A DNA stretch of 33,136 nt from positions 1 to 33,136 of the forward strand of contig CAOKHZ010000040.1 of assembly GCA_948468385.1 (NCBI GenBank), in the 5' to 3' direction. This document shows, piece after piece, positions 622-10,355 of this stretch. The notes beneath the pieces were generated by a model, which worked only from the letters and a program-made list of their open reading frames with translations, was not told the DNA's origin and searched no databases. How positions within the stretch are numbered: the first letter of the stretch is position 1; every line of letters begins with the position of its first letter. The DNA is from an uncultured Faecalicatena sp. (GTDB taxonomy: Bacteria; Bacillota; Clostridia; Lachnospirales; Lachnospiraceae). Made by a program: the position numbers and the translations under genes.

Positions 622-1038
622 TTAGTTTTTTTGGCTCATATATGTTATAGCAAAAGCAACACCAATGCCTAACACTACCCATCTTATAGCAGCCTCACAA
701 AAGTCATAAAACGCACCACCCACGAAAGCGCTAATCGAATAAATTATTGCAACAGCAAATAACACAATTGCTGTTGTTAATATTAATCTCTTATTACCTT
801 TCGCAACCTTTACATCCCTCTCAATCCTTTCTTTCATTTTTGTGTCTCCTTTCAATAGTTCATCTAAACTAATTTGATAAAGGTCACTCAATTTCATAAT
901 GCTAACAATATCTGGCAAGGATTTTCCCCTTTCCCAATTTGATATGGTTTGTCTTGAAACTATAATTTTCTCAGCAACTTGTTCTTGCGTCAAACCAGCA
1001 TTTGCTCTTGCTTCTTTTAATTTCTTCTCAATTTCCAT
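622..1038 (-). CDS. XRE-family HTH regulator with C-terminal membrane segments
   Basis: The product is about 138 aa from the ATG at 1038, chosen because a GGAGG sits 8 bases upstream; a longer in-frame reading to 1107 has no such site. Residues about 1-62 are a classical XRE helix-turn-helix (L-T-Q-E-Q-V-A-E-K-I, then S-R-Q-T-I-S-N-W-E-R-G-K). After a charged linker (about 65-83) come two hydrophobic segments (about 84-104 and 115-134), so the protein is probably a membrane-anchored repressor. This form is common in Firmicutes, often next to transporters or stress genes. It lies downstream of the kinase operon on the same strand and ends at the terminator at 490-528. Target genes are unknown; autoregulation is possible given the dyad at 1100-1128. 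Confidence 0.85.
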   Translation of the reverse strand: MEIEKKLKEARANAGLTQEQVAEKIIVSRQTISNWERGKSLPDIVSIMKLSDLYQISLDELLKGDTKMKERIERDVKVAKGNKRLILTTAIVLFAVAIIYSISAFVGGAFYDFCEAAIRWVVLGIGVAFAITYMSQKN

Positions 1039-1073
1039 ATTTGTGACCTCCATCCGAAAGGATAATAACTCAT

Positions 1074-1346
1074 TTATAGAAAATCGTCTATCAATAGGCT
1101 TTGACACACCTTCGAAAACGCTGTCAAAAAACTTTTACATACCGTCAACTCCCGATTTGCCGAATTGTTCAACGTCACTATCTTACCACAATCATACATA
1201 CTCTTGCTGCGGATATATTTGTCTGTGGTGCTGTAATAGTCCAAAATCTGCTGTTCCTGCATTTTATTCATGGTCTTTGCCCTCTTGTGATATGGATTGA
1301 TTGATATGATTGCATGGCGGCTTCGCACGCTTGCCGCCGTGCACAT
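1074..1346 (-). CDS. Small ORF of unknown function, doubtful
   Basis: A 90-codon open frame on the minus strand lies between the PP2C gene and the XRE gene. The ATG at 1346 has a plausible GAGGTGG four to six bases upstream; an internal ATG at 1271 would give 65 aa. No family is recognised. The start region contains a GC-rich hairpin (GGCGGC / GCCGCC, about 1312-1334), unlike the AT-rich remainder, which suggests the frame runs from an intergenic repeat into a gene remnant. The product has no obvious membrane segment or repeat. It may be a real small protein co-transcribed with the XRE regulator or a degraded fragment. Confidence 0.25.
   Translation of the reverse strand: MCTAASVRSRHAIISINPYHKRAKTMNKMQEQQILDYYSTTDKYIRSKSMYDCGKIVTLNNSANRELTVCKSFLTAFSKVCQSLLIDDFL
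1100..1128. promoter_or_regulatory. Dyad upstream of the XRE gene, possible operator
   Basis: TTTGACA at 1100-1106 is mirrored by TGTCAAA at 1122-1128, with a TTCGAA palindrome between them. It sits about 60 bases upstream of the ATG of the XRE regulator. XRE repressors usually bind such dyads near their own promoter, so autoregulation is possible. No clear -10 box was found beside it, and it lies inside the doubtful small ORF. Confidence 0.3.
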
Positions 1347-1415
1347 AAACCCACCTCATATCTTTTCAAAGATTATTAAGTACCATTATAATCTCCTATG
1401 CGAAAAGTATATGTT

Positions 1416-2162
1416 TTATTCAATTTCTATCAAAACTGCCGTGCAATCGTCTTGAGATCCTTTTTTCGCAGCCATCCTTACCAATTCACTTACCTTCTCT
1501 GATGCATTCTTGTCATCGGAAATGATATCCTCAATTTCATCTAAATCCAGTGAATCATGAATTCCGTCCGATGTAAGCAATACGGCTCTAGGCAACCCTC
1601 GCTCAAAAATCTTTTTGACCATCAAATGCTCAACATACTTATGAGTCCCGCCCCCGAAAGCCCCGCGTATCTCGCTCCTATTACAATTCTCCGCCGCGTC
1701 CTTGTTTCCCGTCATTTTAAGCCATTGGTACGTCGTCTGGTCTTCCGTTATTTGCTTAAGGAAATTTCCCTGCAAAACATAGGCTCTCGTGTTCCCGCAT
1801 TGAGCCAGCAGCACGTCATTATCAGAAAAAAAGATTCCCGTAAACGTGGTCGCCATCCGCTCCTGGCCCACATGGCCAAACGCATACGTCACCAACTCCG
1901 TATTTATTTTGAGCAATTCCATTCTTAATGACTCCGGCGACATGACAGTACTTATATGTTTCACCTGCTCCAGCAGATAGCGAGAAGCTTTCTCTCCGCC
2001 GGCATTTCCACCGACCCCGTCCGTTATGCAGATACTCGCGGGAGTTGAAATTTCAATCGCACCATTTTCCCCACTTATAATCCGTTCACCCAACAATGCG
2101 GCATCCTCACACACGTTCTTATTTATCCCCATATTCACCGCATACGCCACGTCAAATTTCAC
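1416..2162 (-). CDS. PP2C-family (PPM) Ser/Thr protein phosphatase
   Basis: Removes phosphate from Ser/Thr residues of proteins in the cytoplasm, using two metal ions. The product is about 248 aa, a single PPM domain without membrane segments, like Stp/PrpC proteins. Visible motifs are the N-terminal N-x-C-E-D, the metal-binding D-G-V-G-G (about 48-52), a central G-N-T-R-A-Y, the late T-S-D-G-I-H-D, and the closing Q-D-D-C-T-A-V-L. A GTG start at 2162 is preferred because GGAGGT lies 7 bases before it; a TTG five codons upstream has no site. It is the last of seven genes, 59 bases after the membrane coiled-coil gene. Its natural partner is the kinase that opens the operon: the phosphatase would reset kinase or FHA-dependent phosphorylation. 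No terminator is evident directly after it. Confidence 0.92.
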   Translation of the reverse strand: MKFDVAYAVNMGINKNVCEDAALLGERIISGENGAIEISTPASICITDGVGGNAGGEKASRYLLEQVKHISTVMSPESLRMELLKINTELVTYAFGHVGQERMATTFTGIFFSDNDVLLAQCGNTRAYVLQGNFLKQITEDQTTYQWLKMTGNKDAAENCNRSEIRGAFGGGTHKYVEHLMVKKIFERGLPRAVLLTSDGIHDSLDLDEIEDIISDDKNASEKVSELVRMAAKKGSQDDCTAVLIEIE

Positions 2163-2221
2163 CCCGACCACCTCCAACCCACAACACTTCTTGTTTTCAT
2201 TTCCTTGCCTTATATAAAAAA

Positions 2222-2878
2222 CTATTTTACCTGCCTCTTAACATCCAGTTCCGATGTAAATCTTTCTACGTCCATTCTTTTCTTCTCTATGGTATCTGAC
2301 AGAGTCCTGATTTCGGCAAACGCCGGGTTCGCCTCAATTGCCGACGTATCTCCTCCGCATAAGCTAATTATTCTCACCACCTTCAATGCTTTCCTTCTAT
2401 CGTGGATGGAGGCCTCCATGGCTTCTATTTCATTATTGCACTGCTCTATTTTTTTCTCTAACCTCTTTATTTGCTCATATTTCAATTCACTCTTTCTATC
2501 ATCAATTTTATCCTCAATAAATAATCCTAGTGCCCCTATCGTAACAAGTGTCAGACAAATACAGAAAAACACAAATATAACATCCGTAAATCCTCCATCA
2601 TCCTGCTTTTCACTCAGTACATTTTCGGAGTACCATACACAAAATTCCATGGCATAAATCAGGGTTACTGTCCCCGCCACTCCAAACTTCGCCGCCAACC
2701 CCTTCAACAACGAGATTGCCGCCAAAGAAGCCACAATCCAGATTACATAAGACACTTTTATAAAGGTTGGTGTTTCCCAAAGTGAATATACGAGAGAAAC
2801 TATTGGTATAACCACAAACACGAAAACACCATAAAATATTGCTGAACATCCACCCCCGCCAGAACTATTATTTTCCAT
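2222..2878 (-). CDS. Four-TM membrane protein with C-terminal coiled coil, unknown function
   Basis: The product is 218 aa and matches no family that I recognise. The N-terminus is Gly/Ser-rich, followed by four hydrophobic segments at about 12-32, 42-61, 66-84 and 99-122. The remaining third is charged and heptad-like (about 123-168 and 185-218), predicted cytoplasmic coiled coil split by a short C-G-G-D segment. The ATG at 2878 has GAGG five bases upstream. It lies 44 bases after the AAA+ gene and 59 before the PP2C gene. It is the only clear membrane component of the operon and could anchor the system or be the object remodelled by the AAA+ protein; both are inference. Confidence 0.8.
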   Translation of the reverse strand: MENNSSGGGGCSAIFYGVFVFVVIPIVSLVYSLWETPTFIKVSYVIWIVASLAAISLLKGLAAKFGVAGTVTLIYAMEFCVWYSENVLSEKQDDGGFTDVIFVFFCICLTLVTIGALGLFIEDKIDDRKSELKYEQIKRLEKKIEQCNNEIEAMEASIHDRRKALKVVRIISLCGGDTSAIEANPAFAEIRTLSDTIEKKRMDVERFTSELDVKRQVK

Positions 2879-2922
2879 AATACCTCATTTCCTTTCCTAT
2901 TAATTTCTATTTTTCAACCATT

Positions 2923-4821
2923 CTAACTGACACCGTTTTCATTCTCTACGGCCTCGCACTCACATGTCAGCTTATACAGAACGTCGCTCACGTCAATGTC
3001 CACAATTGTTATTTTATGTCCGGAAAATATCTCATGATCAAACATGTATCGCGCAAGTGGATTTATAAGCAGGCTTTCAACAATATTGCTGATTCCCCGG
3101 CCGCCATTGTCCAAATTGTGAATCGCCTTGGTACGAAGCGTGTTCTTCGCGCCATCCGACAACGTAAGGATGATATTTTTATCCATCTTCAAATTGGTAG
3201 CGATTTTTTTAATCTGCGATTGCAATATCTCGTCGGCAACATTTTCTCTGATATAATCAAATACCACGATGTTTTCTCCGATTCGATTCAAAATCTCCGG
3301 TCTGCCCAACTGCAATTTAAAATAATCTTCTATCCCTCTCCTCACGTTTTCCTGCACTTGTTCATATGGCATGTCCGATGTCACGCTCGGATACCGTTCC
3401 CCTCTTTCATTCACACGATATATTCCCAAATTACTTGTGAATATAATAATGGTTTCCGAAAAATACACGGTATTCCCCTGGCCGTCCGTCATACGGCCGT
3501 CTTCCAGAATCTGTAGAAATTTATCCAAAATGGAAGGATGTGCTTTTTCAATTTCGTCAAACAACAATATGGAAAACGGGTTATTTCTAACCGCATTCGT
3601 CAACTGACCGCCCGCCTCATAACCGACATATCCGGGAGGCGCGCCCAACAGCCTTTGGTCACTATGAGACTGACCATATTCACTCATGTCAAACCGAATA
3701 CAACAAGTTTCGTCCCCAAACAATATCTCCGCCAAAGTCTTGGCAGTTTCGGTTTTACCAGTCCCCGTCGGTCCGGCGAAAAACAGAATGCCCTTGGGCT
3801 TGGAGTGCGAAGAAGACTGTAAACCGGCCGTCCTTGTAATTGCACGTTTTACAACATCCAACGTCTTGGTCAACGCGTAATCCTGTCCCTTTACCCGCTT
3901 GTGAAAATCTTCATAAGCATTTTTCATCTGCGCATAATCAAGTGTGTTCCATGGGTTTTCTTTAATGCCGAATTTATAAAGGTCTATCACGTCGCACATA
4001 TTCTTTATATGCATCCTCTGATTTTTGCACAATCTCCTCAGACCATTCAATTCCGTAAAGGAAAATCCTTCGGTCAAAGCGACGAACCGATCCTGAATCT
4101 TTTCTAACTCCTCTGGATGCTCCTCGTAATGCGGAAATTCTTCCCCATAAATATCTCCCGCAAAAAAGCTTGGAAAATTATCTCCCTTGACCAATTGCTC
4201 ACGCTCCTCCTTCACCGGAGTTCGCAGCATGATTGTTTTTACATTTGGATTGTCCAGATAAAACCAGGCCGGTAAATCATTTACCTTGTTTACCAGAATT
4301 ACAACCATGTTTTTCAATATTCCCCGCTCCGTTCTCACGTCACAGCTTTCCAGCGACGTTTGAAGCAATATCGTAAATCCGTCTATTTCCGATTGATCCA
4401 TGTTCGTGGGATCTGTTATGTATCTTGATGCAAAATCAAAAACAATCACGCTTGCCTGTTCCGATTGTGTCATGGCGGTTCTGGCATATGTAGTGGCACT
4501 ATTTGTTTTCCCCTTAAACTCCGCCTTTAGGGTGTCTGCATCAAGCCTTCCCCCCACGAGACTTGCAAATTGCTGAATATAGCTCCCCTCACAATGATTG
4601 TGAAAGCCCCGGATGCTGTCATAGAACACGATATTCTGATATCCCTGATCCTTGAAATAGTAATGCAAGTATTCGACAAGCCGCAAAATGCTTCCTTTGT
4701 CAACACTGCCGGAAACCGGATACTGGTAGCGGTCTAATACATTTCCCTCTAAAATGATAACCGGTTTGATTTTACTGAATATATCTAATTCTCTATGCCA
4801 TTTTGGAATAAACTCATCCAT
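2923..4821 (-). CDS. ClpB/ClpA-like AAA+ ATPase with degenerate first domain
   Basis: The product is about 632 aa from the ATG at 4821, which has GGAGG 7 bases upstream. The C-terminal half is a Clp-type AAA+ module: Walker A G-P-T-G-T-G-K-T (about 350-357), a G-Y-V-G pore loop (about 397-400), Walker B L-L-F-D-E-I-E-K (about 419-426), sensor-1 T-S-N (about 462-464), an R-P-E-I-L-N-R arginine-finger region and a C-terminal D2-small-like domain. The N-terminal half (about 15-275) looks like a second AAA-like domain that has lost its P-loop: E-G-N-V-L-D stands where Walker A would be, with a Walker-B-like S-V-I-V-F-D strand. No Clp N-domain, M-domain or IGF/L ClpP-docking loop was seen, so it is probably a remodeller rather than part of a protease. 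It begins 2 bases after the radical SAM stop codon, so translation is likely coupled. Confidence 0.9.
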   Translation of the reverse strand: MDEFIPKWHRELDIFSKIKPVIILEGNVLDRYQYPVSGSVDKGSILRLVEYLHYYFKDQGYQNIVFYDSIRGFHNHCEGSYIQQFASLVGGRLDADTLKAEFKGKTNSATTYARTAMTQSEQASVIVFDFASRYITDPTNMDQSEIDGFTILLQTSLESCDVRTERGILKNMVVILVNKVNDLPAWFYLDNPNVKTIMLRTPVKEEREQLVKGDNFPSFFAGDIYGEEFPHYEEHPEELEKIQDRFVALTEGFSFTELNGLRRLCKNQRMHIKNMCDVIDLYKFGIKENPWNTLDYAQMKNAYEDFHKRVKGQDYALTKTLDVVKRAITRTAGLQSSSHSKPKGILFFAGPTGTGKTETAKTLAEILFGDETCCIRFDMSEYGQSHSDQRLLGAPPGYVGYEAGGQLTNAVRNNPFSILLFDEIEKAHPSILDKFLQILEDGRMTDGQGNTVYFSETIIIFTSNLGIYRVNERGERYPSVTSDMPYEQVQENVRRGIEDYFKLQLGRPEILNRIGENIVVFDYIRENVADEILQSQIKKIATNLKMDKNIILTLSDGAKNTLRTKAIHNLDNGGRGISNIVESLLINPLARYMFDHEIFSGHKITIVDIDVSDVLYKLTCECEAVENENGVS

Positions 4822-4823
4822 TC

Positions 4824-5429
4824 TCAAACCTCCTCCAATCCTTTTCTTGACACAAGCTCTTTAATCCCCTCTTCATATCCGGGCAAATGGATTCCCACGG
4901 AAATCACGCCGTCTGCCGTGTGAAAATTCTGTATTTTGCTTGTCTTTTGTTCCAAATAAGCCTGATACTTTGTTCTGTATTCTTCATTCAGATAGTATAT
5001 GTTCTGATTATCCGAACCCCTTAGTACCGCACCCTTGTTTTTCTCTTCCTCATATTTTCCGTCAATCAATACCGCGATATATTTTAATAGGTCACCATAT
5101 TTCGCTTTAATGAAACCATATTCATATCCGGTATACACTAAAATATCTTTCTGAACGATATATAGGTAGGGCAGCAATTCTTTCAACGCCTCCGGCTGGT
5201 AAAAAGGGTCTCCCCCGGTCAATGTAAAGCCATCCACGTCATACTTCGAACAAATGGACTCTATCAGCTTTCCCATATTGCCCATTGATATATTATGCTT
5301 TTCATGTTGCCGCCATAATTCGGGATTGCTGCACCCTTTACACATATGCGCACAGCCCGACATCCATATTCCAATTCTTTTCCCTGGTCCCAGCACTTCC
5401 ACCGGATATAACACCCTGGCTATATACAT
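4824..5429 (-). CDS. NrdG-like radical SAM protein
   Basis: The product is 201 aa, close to NrdG-type activases. C26-x3-C30-x2-C33 would bind the [4Fe-4S] cluster that cleaves S-adenosylmethionine, and G-G-D-P-F at about 71-75 is the SAM-binding motif in the form used by glycyl-radical activases and related 4Fe-4S single-cluster proteins. No extra Cys cluster or SPASM domain follows. A C-terminal tail of about 60 aa (from about 140) is family-specific. NrdG normally activates the anaerobic ribonucleotide reductase NrdD, but no NrdD or other glycyl-radical enzyme is nearby. Instead the gene overlaps the FHA gene by 10 bases and ends 2 bases before the AAA+ gene, so it is firmly part of the signalling operon. 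Its substrate is unknown; a neighbouring protein is a candidate. Confidence 0.88.
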   Translation of the reverse strand: MYIARVLYPVEVLGPGKRIGIWMSGCAHMCKGCSNPELWRQHEKHNISMGNMGKLIESICSKYDVDGFTLTGGDPFYQPEALKELLPYLYIVQKDILVYTGYEYGFIKAKYGDLLKYIAVLIDGKYEEEKNKGAVLRGSDNQNIYYLNEEYRTKYQAYLEQKTSKIQNFHTADGVISVGIHLPGYEEGIKELVSRKGLEEV

Positions 5430-6049
5430 GAACCTATCCTCACTTGAAAATATGCCGCCTCCGTCTGTCTGCTGCCATTCTGAACATTCCCGCCCAGCCC
5501 GATTTCATCTCCGTCATGCAGCTCATGGTTTCCCTCGGGAATCTTTTTATTGTTCACATACGTGTAATTCGTCTGGCTTAAATTACGAACAAATAAATGT
5601 GTATCCTCCCGGCTAATTTCCGCATGCCTTCTACTCACATATAACTTTCCTGACAAATATTCATTCATCAAGCCTTCACGCCCAATCACCGCCGGTGTCT
5701 CTACGATTTCATAAGCATACGTCCCATCTAGCGCCGCCAATACATAATGCAAATTATCTTGCGCTTCTTCCATCACGGGTTCCGGTACAATATCTGAAAT
5801 ATCTTCCCCACACACCGCACATTTTCTGGCATTCACTGGATTATGAGCCCCGCAGTCACACGTTCTGACCATTTTCGGCTCTGACGATTCCGATGTTTCT
5901 GGCGCTTCTGCCTTTTCACTCATAGTTTTCTGCATGATTTCATCATCCACGACCCGAATATTGGACAAATCCGTCTCACATTGGACGCATTCTAACATTT
6001 TTGGCGGATTGTGCTTGCCGCAATATGGACAAATTTTATATTTTTCCAT
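5420..6049 (-). CDS. Double zinc-ribbon FHA-domain protein
   Basis: The product is 209 aa. Two CxxC-type zinc ribbons come first: C7-x2-C10...C21-x2-C24 and C64-x-C66...C77-x2-C80, joined by a Ser/Glu-rich linker. The C-terminal half (about 100-205) is an FHA domain, which binds phosphothreonine peptides: I-G-R-E (about 122-125), S-R-R-H-A-E (about 139-144), N-L-S-Q-T-N-Y-T-Y-V-N (about 156-166) and D-G-D-E-I-G-L-G (about 179-186) are all intact, including the Arg, Ser and Asn expected to contact the phosphate. Two bases separate it from the coiled-coil gene upstream, and GAGGG precedes its ATG. In this operon it is the likely reader of marks made by the kinase, whose N-terminus carries repeated Thr motifs. 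Confidence 0.92.
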   Translation of the reverse strand: MEKYKICPYCGKHNPPKMLECVQCETDLSNIRVVDDEIMQKTMSEKAEAPETSESSEPKMVRTCDCGAHNPVNARKCAVCGEDISDIVPEPVMEEAQDNLHYVLAALDGTYAYEIVETPAVIGREGLMNEYLSGKLYVSRRHAEISREDTHLFVRNLSQTNYTYVNNKKIPEGNHELHDGDEIGLGGNVQNGSRQTEAAYFQVRIGSCI

Positions 6050-6051
6050 CT

Positions 6052-7311
6052 CTAGCCCTCTTTATATAAATATTTTCCTCTCGTCATTTTCTTCTTTGCC
6101 TTTCCTTGTTTATAGACTTCTACCGGCTTCACAAGTTCATAATCAGAAGTATTGATAACTTGTGCATATTCCCCCGTCGGTGGCAAAAGCGTAAGCCGAT
6201 TTATTGAAATGCCTTTTTGTGACAGTCGTCTTTCCAACTCTTCATAATCCGCACAAAATGCTTCCATGTCACTGGTCAATTCCGACGCTTCCGTCTCCGT
6301 TGGCATGCGGTCAATCGTATCCAGAGCTCCCAATTCCATTGATATCTGCCCATTATCCGAAAAGGTGACATTGACCGCCGTCCCTTCCTCAAAAAGATAC
6401 AAGCCGTTTCTAAATCGTTTTCCGCTTCGCTTTTGTACGTTTCTTTCACCGACAAGCTCATACCCCATATCCCGCATTGCCTCGTCTATCGCCTCGCTTA
6501 TATATGCACTTTCCTTTTGTGCAAGCAATGCTTTCTCCAATCTGGCAATTTCAGACCGCAACATCCCCATTGCTTCTTCAGAAAAGGAAAACGTTTTCTT
6601 TTCTTCTCCACATTCTTTTGCCAGAAGCCCATACTGCATGGACAAATCCTCGAACTCCTCGACATGCTCTTGATAATATTCACATTTGTGCACAAACGGA
6701 TATACTTGCAAAGAACAAAAATTCTCCAGAAAATCCAAACTCTTTATTTCCATCGCCCGCTTTTGCAGTTGTTCAAATTCCAATCTTAGCTCTTGTGGCA
6801 GCTCTGCCCCTTCTATCTTTTTCAATGCTCCTTGTATCTTCTGGATATGGACATTATCCCTTTCCTTACGATTCGCCCCCAGTCCGGCAAAGGACAACTC
6901 AAAGCCTATAACCATCGCCTTATTTAATTCTTTTTTATACTCTGTTGTTACCCGTTTTTTTACTTCTTGTCCTTCCACTTGCAATTTTTGTACCATCGCG
7001 CAAAATGATTCCAAGTTGGAAATTTGCTTTTTTATTATCTCTATAGAATCTCTTTCATGATAATTACTAACTTTCCTAGCTACGCTCGACAACTCTTCAT
7101 ATCCTTTTTGAAACGCTTCCACGTCCGGCCGACTTTCACCGGCTTCAATGCATACATCGCATATGTCCTCAAAGATAGCCTTTATCTTTTTTAAATTCTC
7201 TACGCCCTTTTCCCTCAACAAGTCTCTCTCTTGTATGTTTTTTTGCCGCTCTTCCAGCTGTCTCCTCTGTTCCTCGGTCAGAACATAACTTGAAGTTTTT
7301 GGTCCGCTCAT
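6052..7311 (-). CDS. Coiled-coil protein of unknown function (M-S-G-P-K-T start)
   Basis: The product is 419 aa, charged and soluble, without membrane segments or a signal peptide. The N-terminus M-S-G-P-K-T-S-S-Y-V-L-T is followed by an E/Q/R-rich helix (about 13-60). Further heptad-like helices run through the middle, with an A-R-L-E-K-A-L-L-A-Q-K stretch near 255-270. The last 130 residues look globular, with a strand-rich segment (G-L-Y-L-F-E-E-G-T-A-V-N-V-T-F) and a Y-E-L-V-K-P-V tail. No enzymatic motif is visible. AGGAG lies 8 bases before the ATG at 7311. It sits between the kinase (34-base gap) and the FHA gene (2-base gap), so it may be a scaffold or kinase substrate; this is inference from position only. 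Confidence 0.82.
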   Translation of the reverse strand: MSGPKTSSYVLTEEQRRQLEERQKNIQERDLLREKGVENLKKIKAIFEDICDVCIEAGESRPDVEAFQKGYEELSSVARKVSNYHERDSIEIIKKQISNLESFCAMVQKLQVEGQEVKKRVTTEYKKELNKAMVIGFELSFAGLGANRKERDNVHIQKIQGALKKIEGAELPQELRLEFEQLQKRAMEIKSLDFLENFCSLQVYPFVHKCEYYQEHVEEFEDLSMQYGLLAKECGEEKKTFSFSEEAMGMLRSEIARLEKALLAQKESAYISEAIDEAMRDMGYELVGERNVQKRSGKRFRNGLYLFEEGTAVNVTFSDNGQISMELGALDTIDRMPTETEASELTSDMEAFCADYEELERRLSQKGISINRLTLLPPTGEYAQVINTSDYELVKPVEVYKQGKAKKKMTRGKYLYKEG

Positions 7312-7345
7312 ATCTCATAATTCTCCTGCTATTCCATCACGCACT

Positions 7346-9076
7346 TTATTCTTGTAAGCTGCTTTTCCACTGCTCAATCTCATTCGCTTTCCCCAACGTC
7401 AAAAGCCACCCTTCGAATTGCGCATCCAAATTATCATTATCATCCATCAACTCCTGGCATATTGTTTCAAAGGCATCATACGATTGTGCTAATTCTTTTT
7501 TCAAGTATTCTGTAAATTCTTGTATGGACTGAAACCGAATTCCATTTTTTAAAAACACTTTTTTCCCGGACAGCATGTAGGCAAGACGATAATAATTTGT
7601 AAATTTTTGCTTGACATCCCGCTTAAATGCCCGATGATTGGACTCTATCGCCCTTACCGCATCTGCCCTCCGCATATCATCGCCATCCATATAAGTGACA
7701 TATTGAGACAAAACGCCTTTCTTCAAAAGTTCATCCATCAGTGAATATACAGTAGAATCCCGCGTCCACAAACTTTCCAAAAACTTGTCCCCAAGCATTT
7801 CTATATTGTCAAATCGGTTCTCCTTCCACACAAAAGCCGTCATGGCCGCATCAATCTTATATAATGTCTTAAAGAAAATGAAATCCTCGTCCCCTTTGGC
7901 CACTTCATCCTCCGCATCCATGCAATAACCTGCAATCTCCGCATCAACATCTTTAAAATATGCCGACAAAAGCCCCCGGAACAATTGCTTTTTCCCGTCT
8001 TTCCAATGATTTGCCAATGCCTCTACCAGCTTCTGCTTATCCGTATAGGTCTGACCCAGAAATTTATACGGCTTGACATCTCCCGAAATCGTAGTCGCCC
8101 CTATTATTTCGCCTGGAATCGGTTGCTTTATGCCCACGCACCATTTAAGAATTTCCTCATAGCCCCAGCGCCTGTTTGGATTTGCCTTGTTCTTCCTGTT
8201 CGTGATATCCGGATAAGTCAAGGCATTAATCAAAACCTTCAGTTCCTCCTCCATTTCGGACGGCAATGGAAGCCTTTGGACGGACACGAATTGTTCAATT
8301 TCATCCTGGCTCATTCTCTCATAAGGCGTATGCCCACAGTATAACTCAAACAAGGTGATTCCCAATGAATAATAATCAGATTCACTCAAAAAAAGATTCT
8401 TAAACGTCTCTGGTGCCGAATACTCCGGAGTCATCCCCGTCCTTGTCACGATGACCGTGTTGCCATCCTCCCGAATCGAGCTGATGCCAAAGTCAATAAT
8501 CGCAACGTCTTGTCCATTGTCGGCAAGCATGATGTTTGAGGGTTTTAAGTCCTTATGTATGATTCCATTGTCATGCAACACCTTTAACCCTTCGTTCAAG
8601 GCCGGTATAATTCCGCCCTTTAATTCCTCATAAGAAAATGTTTTCCCTTCCAAACTTCCATTTCGATAATATGGCAGTATTTCATACGGAAACTCATTCC
8701 ATACATTTGTAGAAAACACTTGTGCGACATATGGAGAATCTATGGATTTTAATTTCTCCGTCACCTCTTCTTTGATGGCCATTTTTCTCCTATATATCTT
8801 TGCGACATATTCACCATTCCCATCAGAGCATATGTACAAATCCGCCTCACCAGTAGATACGTTCAATCTCGACGTGATTTTATACTTCCCCTCCAAAACT
8901 TCTCCGACCATGCTCATGCCACCATCTCTTACTTGCCCATTTACCACCGTGGCATTATCTTTACTTACTTCATTTAGTACTGTCACGTTCACCATTTCAT
9001 TTAACACCGTCACGTTCTCGGTCTCATTCAGAATTGTCGCATTCACGCTCTCGTTTAACACGGTTTTATCACTCAC
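7346..9076 (-). CDS. Ser/Thr protein kinase with N-terminal T-V-L-N-E repeats
   Basis: Transfers phosphate from ATP to Ser/Thr of proteins. The GTG at 9076 is the preferred start (AGGGG 7 bases upstream), giving about 576 aa; an ATG eight codons earlier has no ribosome site. Residues 4-46 hold tandem copies of a nine-residue unit ending T-V/I-L-N-E. The Hanks-type kinase domain spans about 60-290: V-A-K lysine (about 93), catalytic H-K-D-L-K-P-S-N (D about 176), D-F-G (about 195-197) and S-A-P-E (about 220-223). The Gly-rich loop is weak. The C-terminal half (about 315-576) is a helical region with no recognised domain and no membrane segment, unlike PASTA kinases such as PrkC. It is the first gene of a seven-gene operon with FHA and PP2C partners, behind the promoter at 9180-9208. 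Confidence 0.93.
   Translation of the reverse strand: MSDKTVLNESVNATILNETENVTVLNEMVNVTVLNEVSKDNATVVNGQVRDGGMSMVGEVLEGKYKITSRLNVSTGEADLYICSDGNGEYVAKIYRRKMAIKEEVTEKLKSIDSPYVAQVFSTNVWNEFPYEILPYYRNGSLEGKTFSYEELKGGIIPALNEGLKVLHDNGIIHKDLKPSNIMLADNGQDVAIIDFGISSIREDGNTVIVTRTGMTPEYSAPETFKNLFLSESDYYSLGITLFELYCGHTPYERMSQDEIEQFVSVQRLPLPSEMEEELKVLINALTYPDITNRKNKANPNRRWGYEEILKWCVGIKQPIPGEIIGATTISGDVKPYKFLGQTYTDKQKLVEALANHWKDGKKQLFRGLLSAYFKDVDAEIAGYCMDAEDEVAKGDEDFIFFKTLYKIDAAMTAFVWKENRFDNIEMLGDKFLESLWTRDSTVYSLMDELLKKGVLSQYVTYMDGDDMRRADAVRAIESNHRAFKRDVKQKFTNYYRLAYMLSGKKVFLKNGIRFQSIQEFTEYLKKELAQSYDAFETICQELMDDNDNLDAQFEGWLLTLGKANEIEQWKSSLQE
8938..9066 (-). repeat. Tandem 27-nt coding repeat (T-V-L-N-E units) in kinase N-terminus
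   Basis: Within the kinase gene a 27-base unit is repeated in frame, with Thr codons at residues 5, 14, 23 and 32 spaced exactly nine residues apart and a fifth, weaker unit (T-V-V-N-G) at 43. The copies differ at third-codon and some first-codon positions, so the peptide has been kept while the DNA has drifted. Confidence 0.85.
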
Positions 9077-9179
9077 GTTACCACCCCTTGCCTTTATCAT
9101 TCAATTATCCACGTTTTATTTAAAACTTCTTACTTTTACCATATCCTTTATGGCCAAAACCATTGTTTTATTCTTAATT

Positions 9180-9208
9180 AGTATACTCATTTTTACGAAA
9201 TTCGTCAA
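9180..9208 (-). promoter_or_regulatory. Sigma-A-type promoter of the kinase-FHA-AAA operon
   Basis: On the minus strand TTGACG (9203-9208) and TATACT (9180-9185) are separated by 17 bases, a near-consensus pair. Transcription would start near 9173, about 97 bases before the GTG of the kinase. It is the only strong promoter seen upstream of the seven-gene run. Confidence 0.75.
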
Positions 9209-9252
9209 CGTTTGCAAAATAAAATACAGATATACAAAGTGCATATGTACAC

Positions 9253-9291
9253 AAAAAAGACTGCCACAATTTCAATTCTCTTGCAACAGCC
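9253..9291 (-). terminator. Rho-independent terminator of the trmB-trx-bsh operon
   Basis: On the minus strand an 11-bp stem (GGCTGTTGCAA with TTGTGGCAGTC, with several G-T pairs) is followed by six T residues (9253-9258). It lies about 90 bases after the stop codon of the choloylglycine hydrolase gene and just before the kinase promoter, separating the two operons. Confidence 0.7.
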
Positions 9292-9380
9292 TTTATCTTG
9301 CCGTTCGTATTTCGTCTTTTTCGACACCACCACTCACGTCTCTTCTTTTTCGCCCTACCCTGGCCGGCCGTGAATAATAG

Positions 9381-10355
9381 CTAATTCTGCATCCAAACCT
9401 GCTCCCTTTGAATCGGCTCATACCTTGTCAGCCGAAACCCGTCCAAATCCACGTTGTACATATGAACCGCCGTAATCTGGTGATTTTCATACGTCGTATA
9501 ATAATAAATCCCTTTCTGCGTGTTGCAACACGACGTATAGTGCGTAATGTAATATTTTCCTTCCCCCATGCAACAACATCCCCGCAACTGCTCCACGCAA
9601 CCCAAAATATGGAAAAACTGGCTGACACTCTCCAACTCCGAATCCCCGGAAACCGAGTTCAGCTTCGCGAACGCCGCCTTGATAAAGCGCGACTGGGACG
9701 ACCAGTCACCCGGAAGCCCCATCGCCCCCATTCCGTTGCTATACGTCTTTAACGGCAGCTTGCTGCAAAAATTATTCTTCGGTTCCTCTATTGACAAATA
9801 CATATAATTATTGAGCTGGAACATTTGCTCGCCAAACGTCGGATTATTCGTCAATACCCCGACTTCGTTGTCAAACACCTGAACGCCGTTTTCGGTCGAT
9901 TCCAGGGTTATCACCTCGGTGCTGTCCGCAATCATCCAGTGAAGCTCGGAGGGTGGCAGTTCCCCATTGACGCAAATATTAACAAGGTTGAGATTTTTTA
10001 TCAGTTCCTTTGCCTCTCCTACCGTGGCGCAACGCCCCAAAAGCCATGGTATCAACTCAAAGGGGGCCACGTTGTATTTTCCCTCTTCCGCCTCGTTATA
10101 ATGCGCGTTTCCAATAAAATTCAAGCCGGCAATTCCCAGTCCCTTTTCATTCACCGCCTCGTAGTACAACGGCACGTCTTCGACCACGTGCGCCATGCCA
10201 ATCATCGCATAATGACTGTGCATCACGCCCATGTTGCGAAAACGAAAGCTAAAATTCCGGGGGGTGATTACCACCTCGTCCCCATAAGAAAAATCAAGAT
10301 CCAGCGTACGCCCAAAATAAAAATCTTTTGTCATATACGTCGCCGCCGTGCACAT
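9381..10355 (-). CDS. Choloylglycine hydrolase family protein (bile-salt-hydrolase-like)
   Basis: Ntn-type hydrolase that cleaves linear amides, here most likely the glycine/taurine amide of conjugated bile acids. The product is 324 aa, the usual length. After Met removal Cys2 would be the nucleophile (M-C-T-A-A). Other family residues are visible: G-R-T-L-D (R16, D19), the N-N-P-T-F segment in G-V-L-T-N-N-P-T-F, L-P-G-D-W-S-S-Q-S-R-F, and an L-R-G followed by H-Y-T-S-C. The C-terminal G-I-Y-Y-Y-T-T-Y-E-N stretch is typical of bile salt hydrolases, making penicillin V acylase less likely, though substrate cannot be settled from sequence. No signal peptide, so it is cytoplasmic. GGGAGG precedes the ATG. 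It is the last gene of the trmB-trx operon; the link to these genes is unclear. Confidence 0.9.
   Translation of the reverse strand: MCTAATYMTKDFYFGRTLDLDFSYGDEVVITPRNFSFRFRNMGVMHSHYAMIGMAHVVEDVPLYYEAVNEKGLGIAGLNFIGNAHYNEAEEGKYNVAPFELIPWLLGRCATVGEAKELIKNLNLVNICVNGELPPSELHWMIADSTEVITLESTENGVQVFDNEVGVLTNNPTFGEQMFQLNNYMYLSIEEPKNNFCSKLPLKTYSNGMGAMGLPGDWSSQSRFIKAAFAKLNSVSGDSELESVSQFFHILGCVEQLRGCCCMGEGKYYITHYTSCCNTQKGIYYYTTYENHQITAVHMYNVDLDGFRLTRYEPIQREQVWMQN

Follow-up and report, generated by a model that had tools for sequence, protein, structure and literature searches.

The stretch of DNA analysed here (the window, 33,136 nucleotides) is contig CAOKHZ010000040.1 of the assembly GCA_948468385.1, from an uncultured Faecalicatena sp. 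On its minus strand, between 1416 and 9100, seven open reading frames form one tight unit, in the order kinase (KIN), coiled-coil protein (CC), Zn-ribbon/FHA protein, NrdG-like radical SAM protein (rSAM), AAA+ protein, multi-transmembrane (TM) coiled-coil protein, and PP2C-type phosphatase (Table 1). The preliminary description of this DNA presented them as a seven-gene operon and a candidate undescribed signalling or conflict system. The operon is real and all seven genes are present; six of them constitute a cassette that is almost certainly a genuine conserved unit, whereas the TM gene occupies a variable slot.

Gene content and conservation of the cassette

A scan of 84,980 species gave 274 relatives, the best 80 of which were kept. 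After 21 loci of a separate type (type III, see below) were taken out of the co-occurrence count, 59 loci remained. Assessable loci (28, including the closely similar pair L057/L058) are those extending 6.5 kb or more upstream and 1.5 kb or more downstream, a rule set after the layouts had been seen; L050 and L038, located on the same contigs as L061 and L098, were left out of the counts. A scattering of the genes in other genomes, which would have refuted the preliminary description, is not seen: KIN, CC, FHA, rSAM, AAA and PP2C are found on one strand in 22 of the 28 assessable loci, with KIN, CC, FHA and rSAM upstream of AAA and PP2C downstream. The loci short of the full set are L060, L085, L097, L102, L110 and L123. 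Among all 59 loci, many of them on cut contigs, the same-strand partners of AAA are rSAM (46), FHA (45), CC (39), PP2C (35), KIN (34) and a helicase (20). The same genes occur in other orders in the more distant L013, L014, L042 and L045-L048.

The cassette proteins also diverge coherently. The near-duplicates L046, L048 and L058 were set aside, as were loci in which a member is short or absent. In the 31 complete cassettes then compared, pairwise distances correlate at 0.845-0.951 for every one of the 15 protein pairs; the relatedness of the hosts inflates these values, and none of 500 permutations reached them.

The TM protein does not belong to this unit, and the idea of seven genes as a unit was dropped: at E <= 1, it has one weak homologue among the 1404 called proteins (a protein of L062, 27.1 bits). 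In L053 (Cuneatibacter), L054 and L056 the same slot holds a TM protein that is not recognisably related to that of the window. Elsewhere, the variable slots accommodate BspA-type leucine-rich repeats (L066, L102), an SMC/AbiEii-like ATPase (L066) and DUF5050 proteins (L082), as well as inserted proteins of other loci with no Pfam family; in L057, the gene after PP2C encodes a DUF4236 protein. Such slots may hold sensors or outputs. In the window protein, a simple scan gives three hydrophobic segments rather than the four TM segments described earlier.

The kinase (Pkinase), FHA with Zn ribbon, radical SAM (Fer4_12), ClpB-like AAA+ (AAA_2 and ClpB_D2-small) and PP2C families are backed by Pfam/NCBIfam, the PP2C-like protein with scores under the cut-offs. 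None of the seven proteins passes an NCBIfam cut-off, and for CC and the TM protein no family of either library is above its cut-off. The gaps between the genes are 2, 34, 44 and 44 bases, so the tight packing stands, but with the longest reading frames there are two overlaps (of 10 and 4 bases) and not one. The GC content of the cassette is 0.424, in comparison to 0.508 to the right of it, confirming that the region is AT-richer. The start of the kinase is more probably the GTG at 9076, which follows a good ribosome-binding site (AGGGGTGG), than the ATG at 9100; that of AAA may be an ATG two codons in. The sigma-70-like match at 9208-9180 is the sole one of four equal-scoring minus-strand matches (1000-9500) which lies upstream of the kinase; over both strands, matches of this kind are only somewhat more frequent than expected (28 against 19.9). 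To the left of the cassette, at 622-1107, an XRE-like regulator gene is present by appearance, and the contig ends at base 1.

Table 1. Features of the cassette region in the window.
Feature	Position	Strand	Basis and remarks
PP2C-type Ser/Thr phosphatase (eraser), 253 aa	1416..2177	-	NF033484 E 9.5e-31, below cut-off
Multi-TM and coiled-coil protein, 218 aa	2222..2878	-	Accessory; variable slot between AAA and PP2C
Two-ring Clp/Hsp100-type AAA+, 634 aa	2923..4827	-	Degenerate D1; ClpB-like D2 with motifs; without N-domain
NrdG-like radical SAM, CxxxCxxC, 201 aa	4824..5429	-	PF13353 E 2.4e-31; 4-base overlap with AAA
Zinc ribbons and FHA domain (phosphothreonine reader), 209 aa	5420..6049	-	PF00498 E 5.8e-14; 10-base overlap with rSAM
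CC, 419 aa	6052..7311	-	MSGPK N-terminus; C-terminal alpha/beta domain, invariant Cys353 (alignments and model)
Ser/Thr kinase (writer)	7346..9076	-	PF00069 E 1.3e-29; N-terminal T-x-[ILV]-N repeats; reading frame extends to 9100
Five T-x-[ILV]-N motifs, kinase N-terminus	8939..9064	-	Counted; putative FHA docking sites
Sigma-70-like match TTGACG-17-TATACT	9180..9208	-	Consensus match only, 10/12

Kinase repeats, motor and radical SAM protein

The N-terminal extensions of the kinases are rich in a short threonine motif, T-x-[ILVMF]-N. In 43 of the 46 kinases (three were dropped, having no readable N-terminus or HRD motif), 112 motifs are found in the extensions, compared with 7.9 in composition-preserving shuffles, and the density is 4.18 per 100 residues there and 0.06 in the remainder of the kinases; since the pattern was fixed after the sequences had been viewed and related kinases were counted singly, these values are descriptive and do not constitute a test. 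The first, looser pattern gave 81 motifs and 11.8 in shuffles. All 35 kinases with any motif have two or more. Outside the kinases, 14 of the 1404 proteins contain a pair of motifs within 60 residues, but no such pair falls in the first 60 residues of its protein. FHA domains bind phosphothreonine in short sequence contexts, so the repeats are most simply read as places where the FHA protein would dock on the kinase tail once this is phosphorylated. Judging from sequence, such a role is on balance likely. The plasmid cassette of Aristaeella lactis (L133) has a second kinase (L133:16180-19038), also with three N-terminal T-x-[ILVMF]-N motifs. The kinases of L013, L014 and L043, without T-x-[ILVMF]-N, show other threonine motifs (TRKIAPP, TRKLAMP, PTAKMGG, TAIMGG), which are perhaps matched to their own partners.

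The AAA protein consists of two rings, a degenerate D1 with no Walker A motif and a D2 in which the ClpB-like motifs are kept; its model shows the D1+D2 fold of ClpB/Hsp100. The CxxxCxxC motif is present in all 67 members of the rSAM family, including that of the window. The match of rSAM to NrdG (TIGR02491) scores 116.2 bits, under the cut-off of 126.1, and the window genome has a separate NrdG (186.5 bits); rSAM is therefore a distinct activase-like enzyme. The PP2C protein reaches 107 bits with NF033484 (cut-off 230) and 18.9 with Pfam PP2C (cut-off 20.3). The single-family labels NrdG, ClpB, ClpV, TagH and PknB were all rejected, being below the curated cut-offs.

According to alignments of 36 and 32 rows and a model, CC has an MSGPK strand at its N-terminus, followed by long helices and, at the C-terminus, an alpha/beta domain, and it gave no clear match in the PDB. 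Cys353 is invariant in the 36 alignment rows; CC and the coiled-coil protein (CC2) of the type II operons described below both have an invariant Cys towards the end of the C-terminal domain. That the C-terminal domain of CC around Cys353 might be the substrate of rSAM is a guess, and unlikely to be right.

Occurrence, mobility and related operons

The N-terminal region of AAA is family-specific and was used to follow the cassette. Genomes that match it are rare. Of 295 from the order, 5 do, one with a broken copy and one with a type II copy; the phylum gives 16 out of 398, with three weak matches among them, and the family 4 out of 150. The window genome is part of each count. Weak hidden Markov model hits in G379, G655 and G395 (E about 1e-3) were set aside; in the one that was examined (L049), none of the cassette genes was matched. 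The window genome carries one copy of the cassette AAA, the three other matches being paralogues that align only at the D2 part or its edge. Within the genus, the cassette AAA is found in 2 of 12 genomes, including that of the window, and the other ten hold only D2-matching paralogues. The N-terminal identity to the window protein is 73% in G834; Cuneatibacter (83%) and three Lachnospiraceae metagenome-assembled genomes (81-85%) stand nearer to it. In the congener G833, the right flank of the window is kept at 70-98% protein identity, while other genes are found at the cassette site, with no match to cassette proteins. The sporadic, partly plasmid-borne occurrence and the flank kept without the cassette in G833 bear out the suggestion of transfer. 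In phages, none of the 149 matching records covers 80% of the query, and the matches listed begin at residue 244 or later.

A gene for a DUF4011-helicase-endonuclease precedes the kinase in 14 of the 28 assessable loci. Both scanned examples (L057 and L133) are superfamily 1 (SF1) helicases with the arrangement DUF4011-AAA_11-AAA_12-MTES_1575 endonuclease, DUF3320 being just under its cut-off; the L133 helicase matches the PADLOC models PDC-S37 (1308 bits) and Hhe (545 bits). L015 (G172) contains a decayed AAA gene with an internal TAG and, next to it, an intact kinase gene whose product has 45% identity to that of the window. This kinase gene is preceded by a large gene, by eye a DUF4011-type helicase; tubulin-like and vWA-like genes are nearby, also by eye.

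The AAA-rSAM pair is also found without kinase, FHA and PP2C, in a five-gene operon (type II) with the order helicase-PIN-coiled-coil-AAA-rSAM; plasmids from five genera of proteobacteria share this order. In L136, the helicase of the type II operon has a match to MkoA (E 7e-102). In a DNA similarity search of E. coli for the type II operon, none of the 1479 matching records covers 80% of the query; the matches listed are Clp-type genes, corresponding to 12-13% of it. Extra radical SAM genes adjoin type II operons at L137:15242-16228, L144:1452-3520 and L044:12721-15730 (the last partly by eye). In the 21 type III loci (L105-L132, defined by a VTC-like neighbour), mostly from metagenome-assembled genomes of ruminant Clostridia, AAA closes a conserved run whose members are, by eye, SNF2 helicase, CotH/lamin-tail, DUF4956-like membrane, VTC-like and CapA-like proteins.

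Proposed working, alternatives and known systems

The helicase-nuclease and helicase-PIN genes in the relatives point to conflict with phages or plasmids as the likely purpose. With its parts, their co-occurrence and conserved catalytic motifs, its mobility and its repeats, the cassette can be read as a horizontally moving, phosphorylation-switched protein-remodelling system, likely acting in such conflict; we regard this as plausible, at a little under an even chance. The constant core would be the Clp-type AAA+ protein with its degenerate D1, the NrdG-like rSAM and a coiled-coil partner. The kinase would phosphorylate the threonines of its own N-terminal T-x-[IL]-N repeats, on which the Zn-ribbon/FHA protein would dock, recruiting the CC/AAA+/rSAM machine, and in healthy cells PP2C would hold the switch off. 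A trigger shifting the kinase/phosphatase balance would then allow the motor to unfold or open a client, so that rSAM could reach and modify it. In the relatives, the client or the output would be the helicase-nuclease (type I, the cassette loci) or the helicase-PIN RNase (type II).

To our knowledge, an Hsp100-type motor and a radical SAM enzyme are not combined in any known system, and no such system was matched here. If the two cooperate, the unfolding of a client to expose a site for radical modification would be a new kind of protein control. The two exchangeable output modules, of which one is carried by plasmids, conjugative ones included, suggest a mobile conflict system that has not been described. 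A further-reaching and tentative proposal, which we consider possible rather than probable, is a new class of immune machine, in which an AAA+/rSAM core is exchangeable between a phosphothreonine switch with a DNA helicase-nuclease and a helicase-PIN RNase, and in which the T-x-[IL]-N repeats of the kinase form the FHA docking platform. Because of the repeats, synthetic phosphopeptides would allow a direct test of the link between FHA protein and kinase.

Several observations weigh against the conflict system outlined above. Eight of the 43 kinases, the distant ones, have no T-x-[ILVMF]-N repeats. The comparison of CC with CC2 by hhalign (E 0.017, probability 2.7%) suggests homology without being significant, and we know of no substrate of rSAM. 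The AAA of the 21 type III loci occurs without rSAM or kinase, in a different conserved neighbourhood. No DUF4011 match was found in the window genome (94% complete), and no helicase gene lies near the nearest cassettes (L053-L056); the window cassette is thus of a helicase-less subtype. Defence genes in the sampled flanks are also few. In a scan of 114 of 382 type I flank proteins and 99 of 145 type III control proteins, both hand-picked, 96 PADLOC models (which are redundant) were matched in the type I flanks, all but one by a single protein, and 15 in the controls; of ten large flank proteins followed up, only two matched. Finally, a His-Xaa-Ser maturation cluster adjoins the cassette without a break in two loci from distant genomes, L013 and L098 (Mitsuokella multacida).

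The flank matches to DpdF, PDC-S01, PDC-S02 and PsyrT were not traced to a locus, and the match to Cas10/Csm1 is taken as L045, the sole sampled locus with csm-like neighbours by eye; the controls contain a Zorya-like pair and a few others. The only clear case is L061 (same contig as L050), where PglZ and GmrSD come shortly after PP2C, together with a restriction-like helicase. The defence content of the flanks is scattered and suggestive only, and no enrichment is claimed. The PADLOC matches of the kinase (PD-T4-6, mad6, MkoA) were rejected as system assignments, as the matched stretches lie in the kinase domain. From the sequence data at hand, the chances for and against defence as the role of the cassette appear balanced.

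The His-Xaa-Ser clusters (L013:7887-15230 and L098:2-5607) contain HxsB, HxsC and HxsA-like genes, HxsD in L013, and MORN, DUF5050 and other proteins. HxsA3, HxsB, HxsC and HxsD of L013 are all over their cut-offs; six non-cassette proteins are common to both loci, those of L098 being named by similarity to L013. Regulated maturation of a surface or peptide product, with kinase, FHA and PP2C timing the AAA+/rSAM machine, would account for the continuity of these two cassettes on one strand with HxsB-, HxsC- and HxsA-like genes, and for the further radical SAM genes that adjoin L044. This explanation is unlikely, as the Hxs link is seen in two loci out of the 45 whose cassette kinase is clustered (from layouts as read, no search being made) and the core elsewhere associates with helicase-nuclease genes.

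Eukaryotic checkpoint kinases use a phospho-cluster docking platform, to which the kinase repeats would be a parallel. Together with the SF1 helicases and their nuclease or PIN partners, this would suit a stress or checkpoint module that serves not defence but the response to DNA damage or the quality control of RNA within the cell itself, but the sporadic, partly plasmid-borne distribution is unlike that of housekeeping repair and the window subtype has no helicase, so that we consider such a module quite unlikely. A toxin/antitoxin pair based on phosphorylation, with kinase activity as the toxin, PP2C as the antitoxin and AAA+/rSAM as accessory, appears improbable: kinase and PP2C do share one cassette, L133 has two kinases and KKP, as reported, offers a precedent (PMC11341870), but the AAA-rSAM pair is commoner than the kinase (46 and 34 of the 59 loci, many contigs being cut) and exists without it. 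The synthesis of a small antiviral nucleotide by rSAM, as in viperin, is highly improbable, for the weak pVip match of the type II rSAM (24 bits) spans residues 27-103 only and the family is nearest to NrdG, an activase.

In comparison with known systems, the cassette appears to be an undescribed set, as first proposed: no system in the libraries run contains it. No description was found in the literature covered, which excludes preprints and most subscription journals, and the passages seen of PMC7159879, PMC13092281 and PMC10250203 do not describe it. The L133 helicase matches Hhe/PDC-S37; in the cassettes, this gene precedes the six-gene phospho/AAA/rSAM set, and the window lacks it. Hhe/PDC-S37 is catalogued as a single-gene entry. 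In Mokosh, MkoA is a kinase fused to an SF1 helicase. The theme of kinase and helicase is common to both, the cassette adding CC, AAA+, rSAM, FHA and PP2C; the window kinase matches MkoA at residues 68-305 only and has no helicase domain, thus it is not an MkoA. Type VI secretion has a phosphothreonine kinase/FHA/phosphatase/ClpV set. Writer, reader, eraser and Clp ATPase are alike in the cassette, but the scores are far from the cut-offs (22 for TagH, cut-off 120.25; 227.5 for ClpV, cut-off 884.95). NrdG is the nearest radical SAM family to rSAM, which differs in scoring under its cut-off. With the Hsp100 proteins ClpB and ClpC the AAA shares both ring folds, whereas it has no N-domain and no Walker A in D1, and scores 267.6 bits against a cut-off of 1232.1. 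Some variants of the MoxR-vWA ternary conflict systems, in the part of the source available, have kinase, FHA or radical SAM parts alongside their AAA+ remodeller (PMC7159879). The cassette AAA+ is of the Clp/Hsp100 type with D1 and D2 (AAA_2/ClpB_D2), not MoxR, and no vWA family is present among the seven proteins, in agreement with the preliminary description. KKP, in the passages seen, consists of two kinases and a phosphatase (PMC11341870); a writer/eraser balance as the possible trigger would be common to both systems, the window cassette having one kinase and L133 two.

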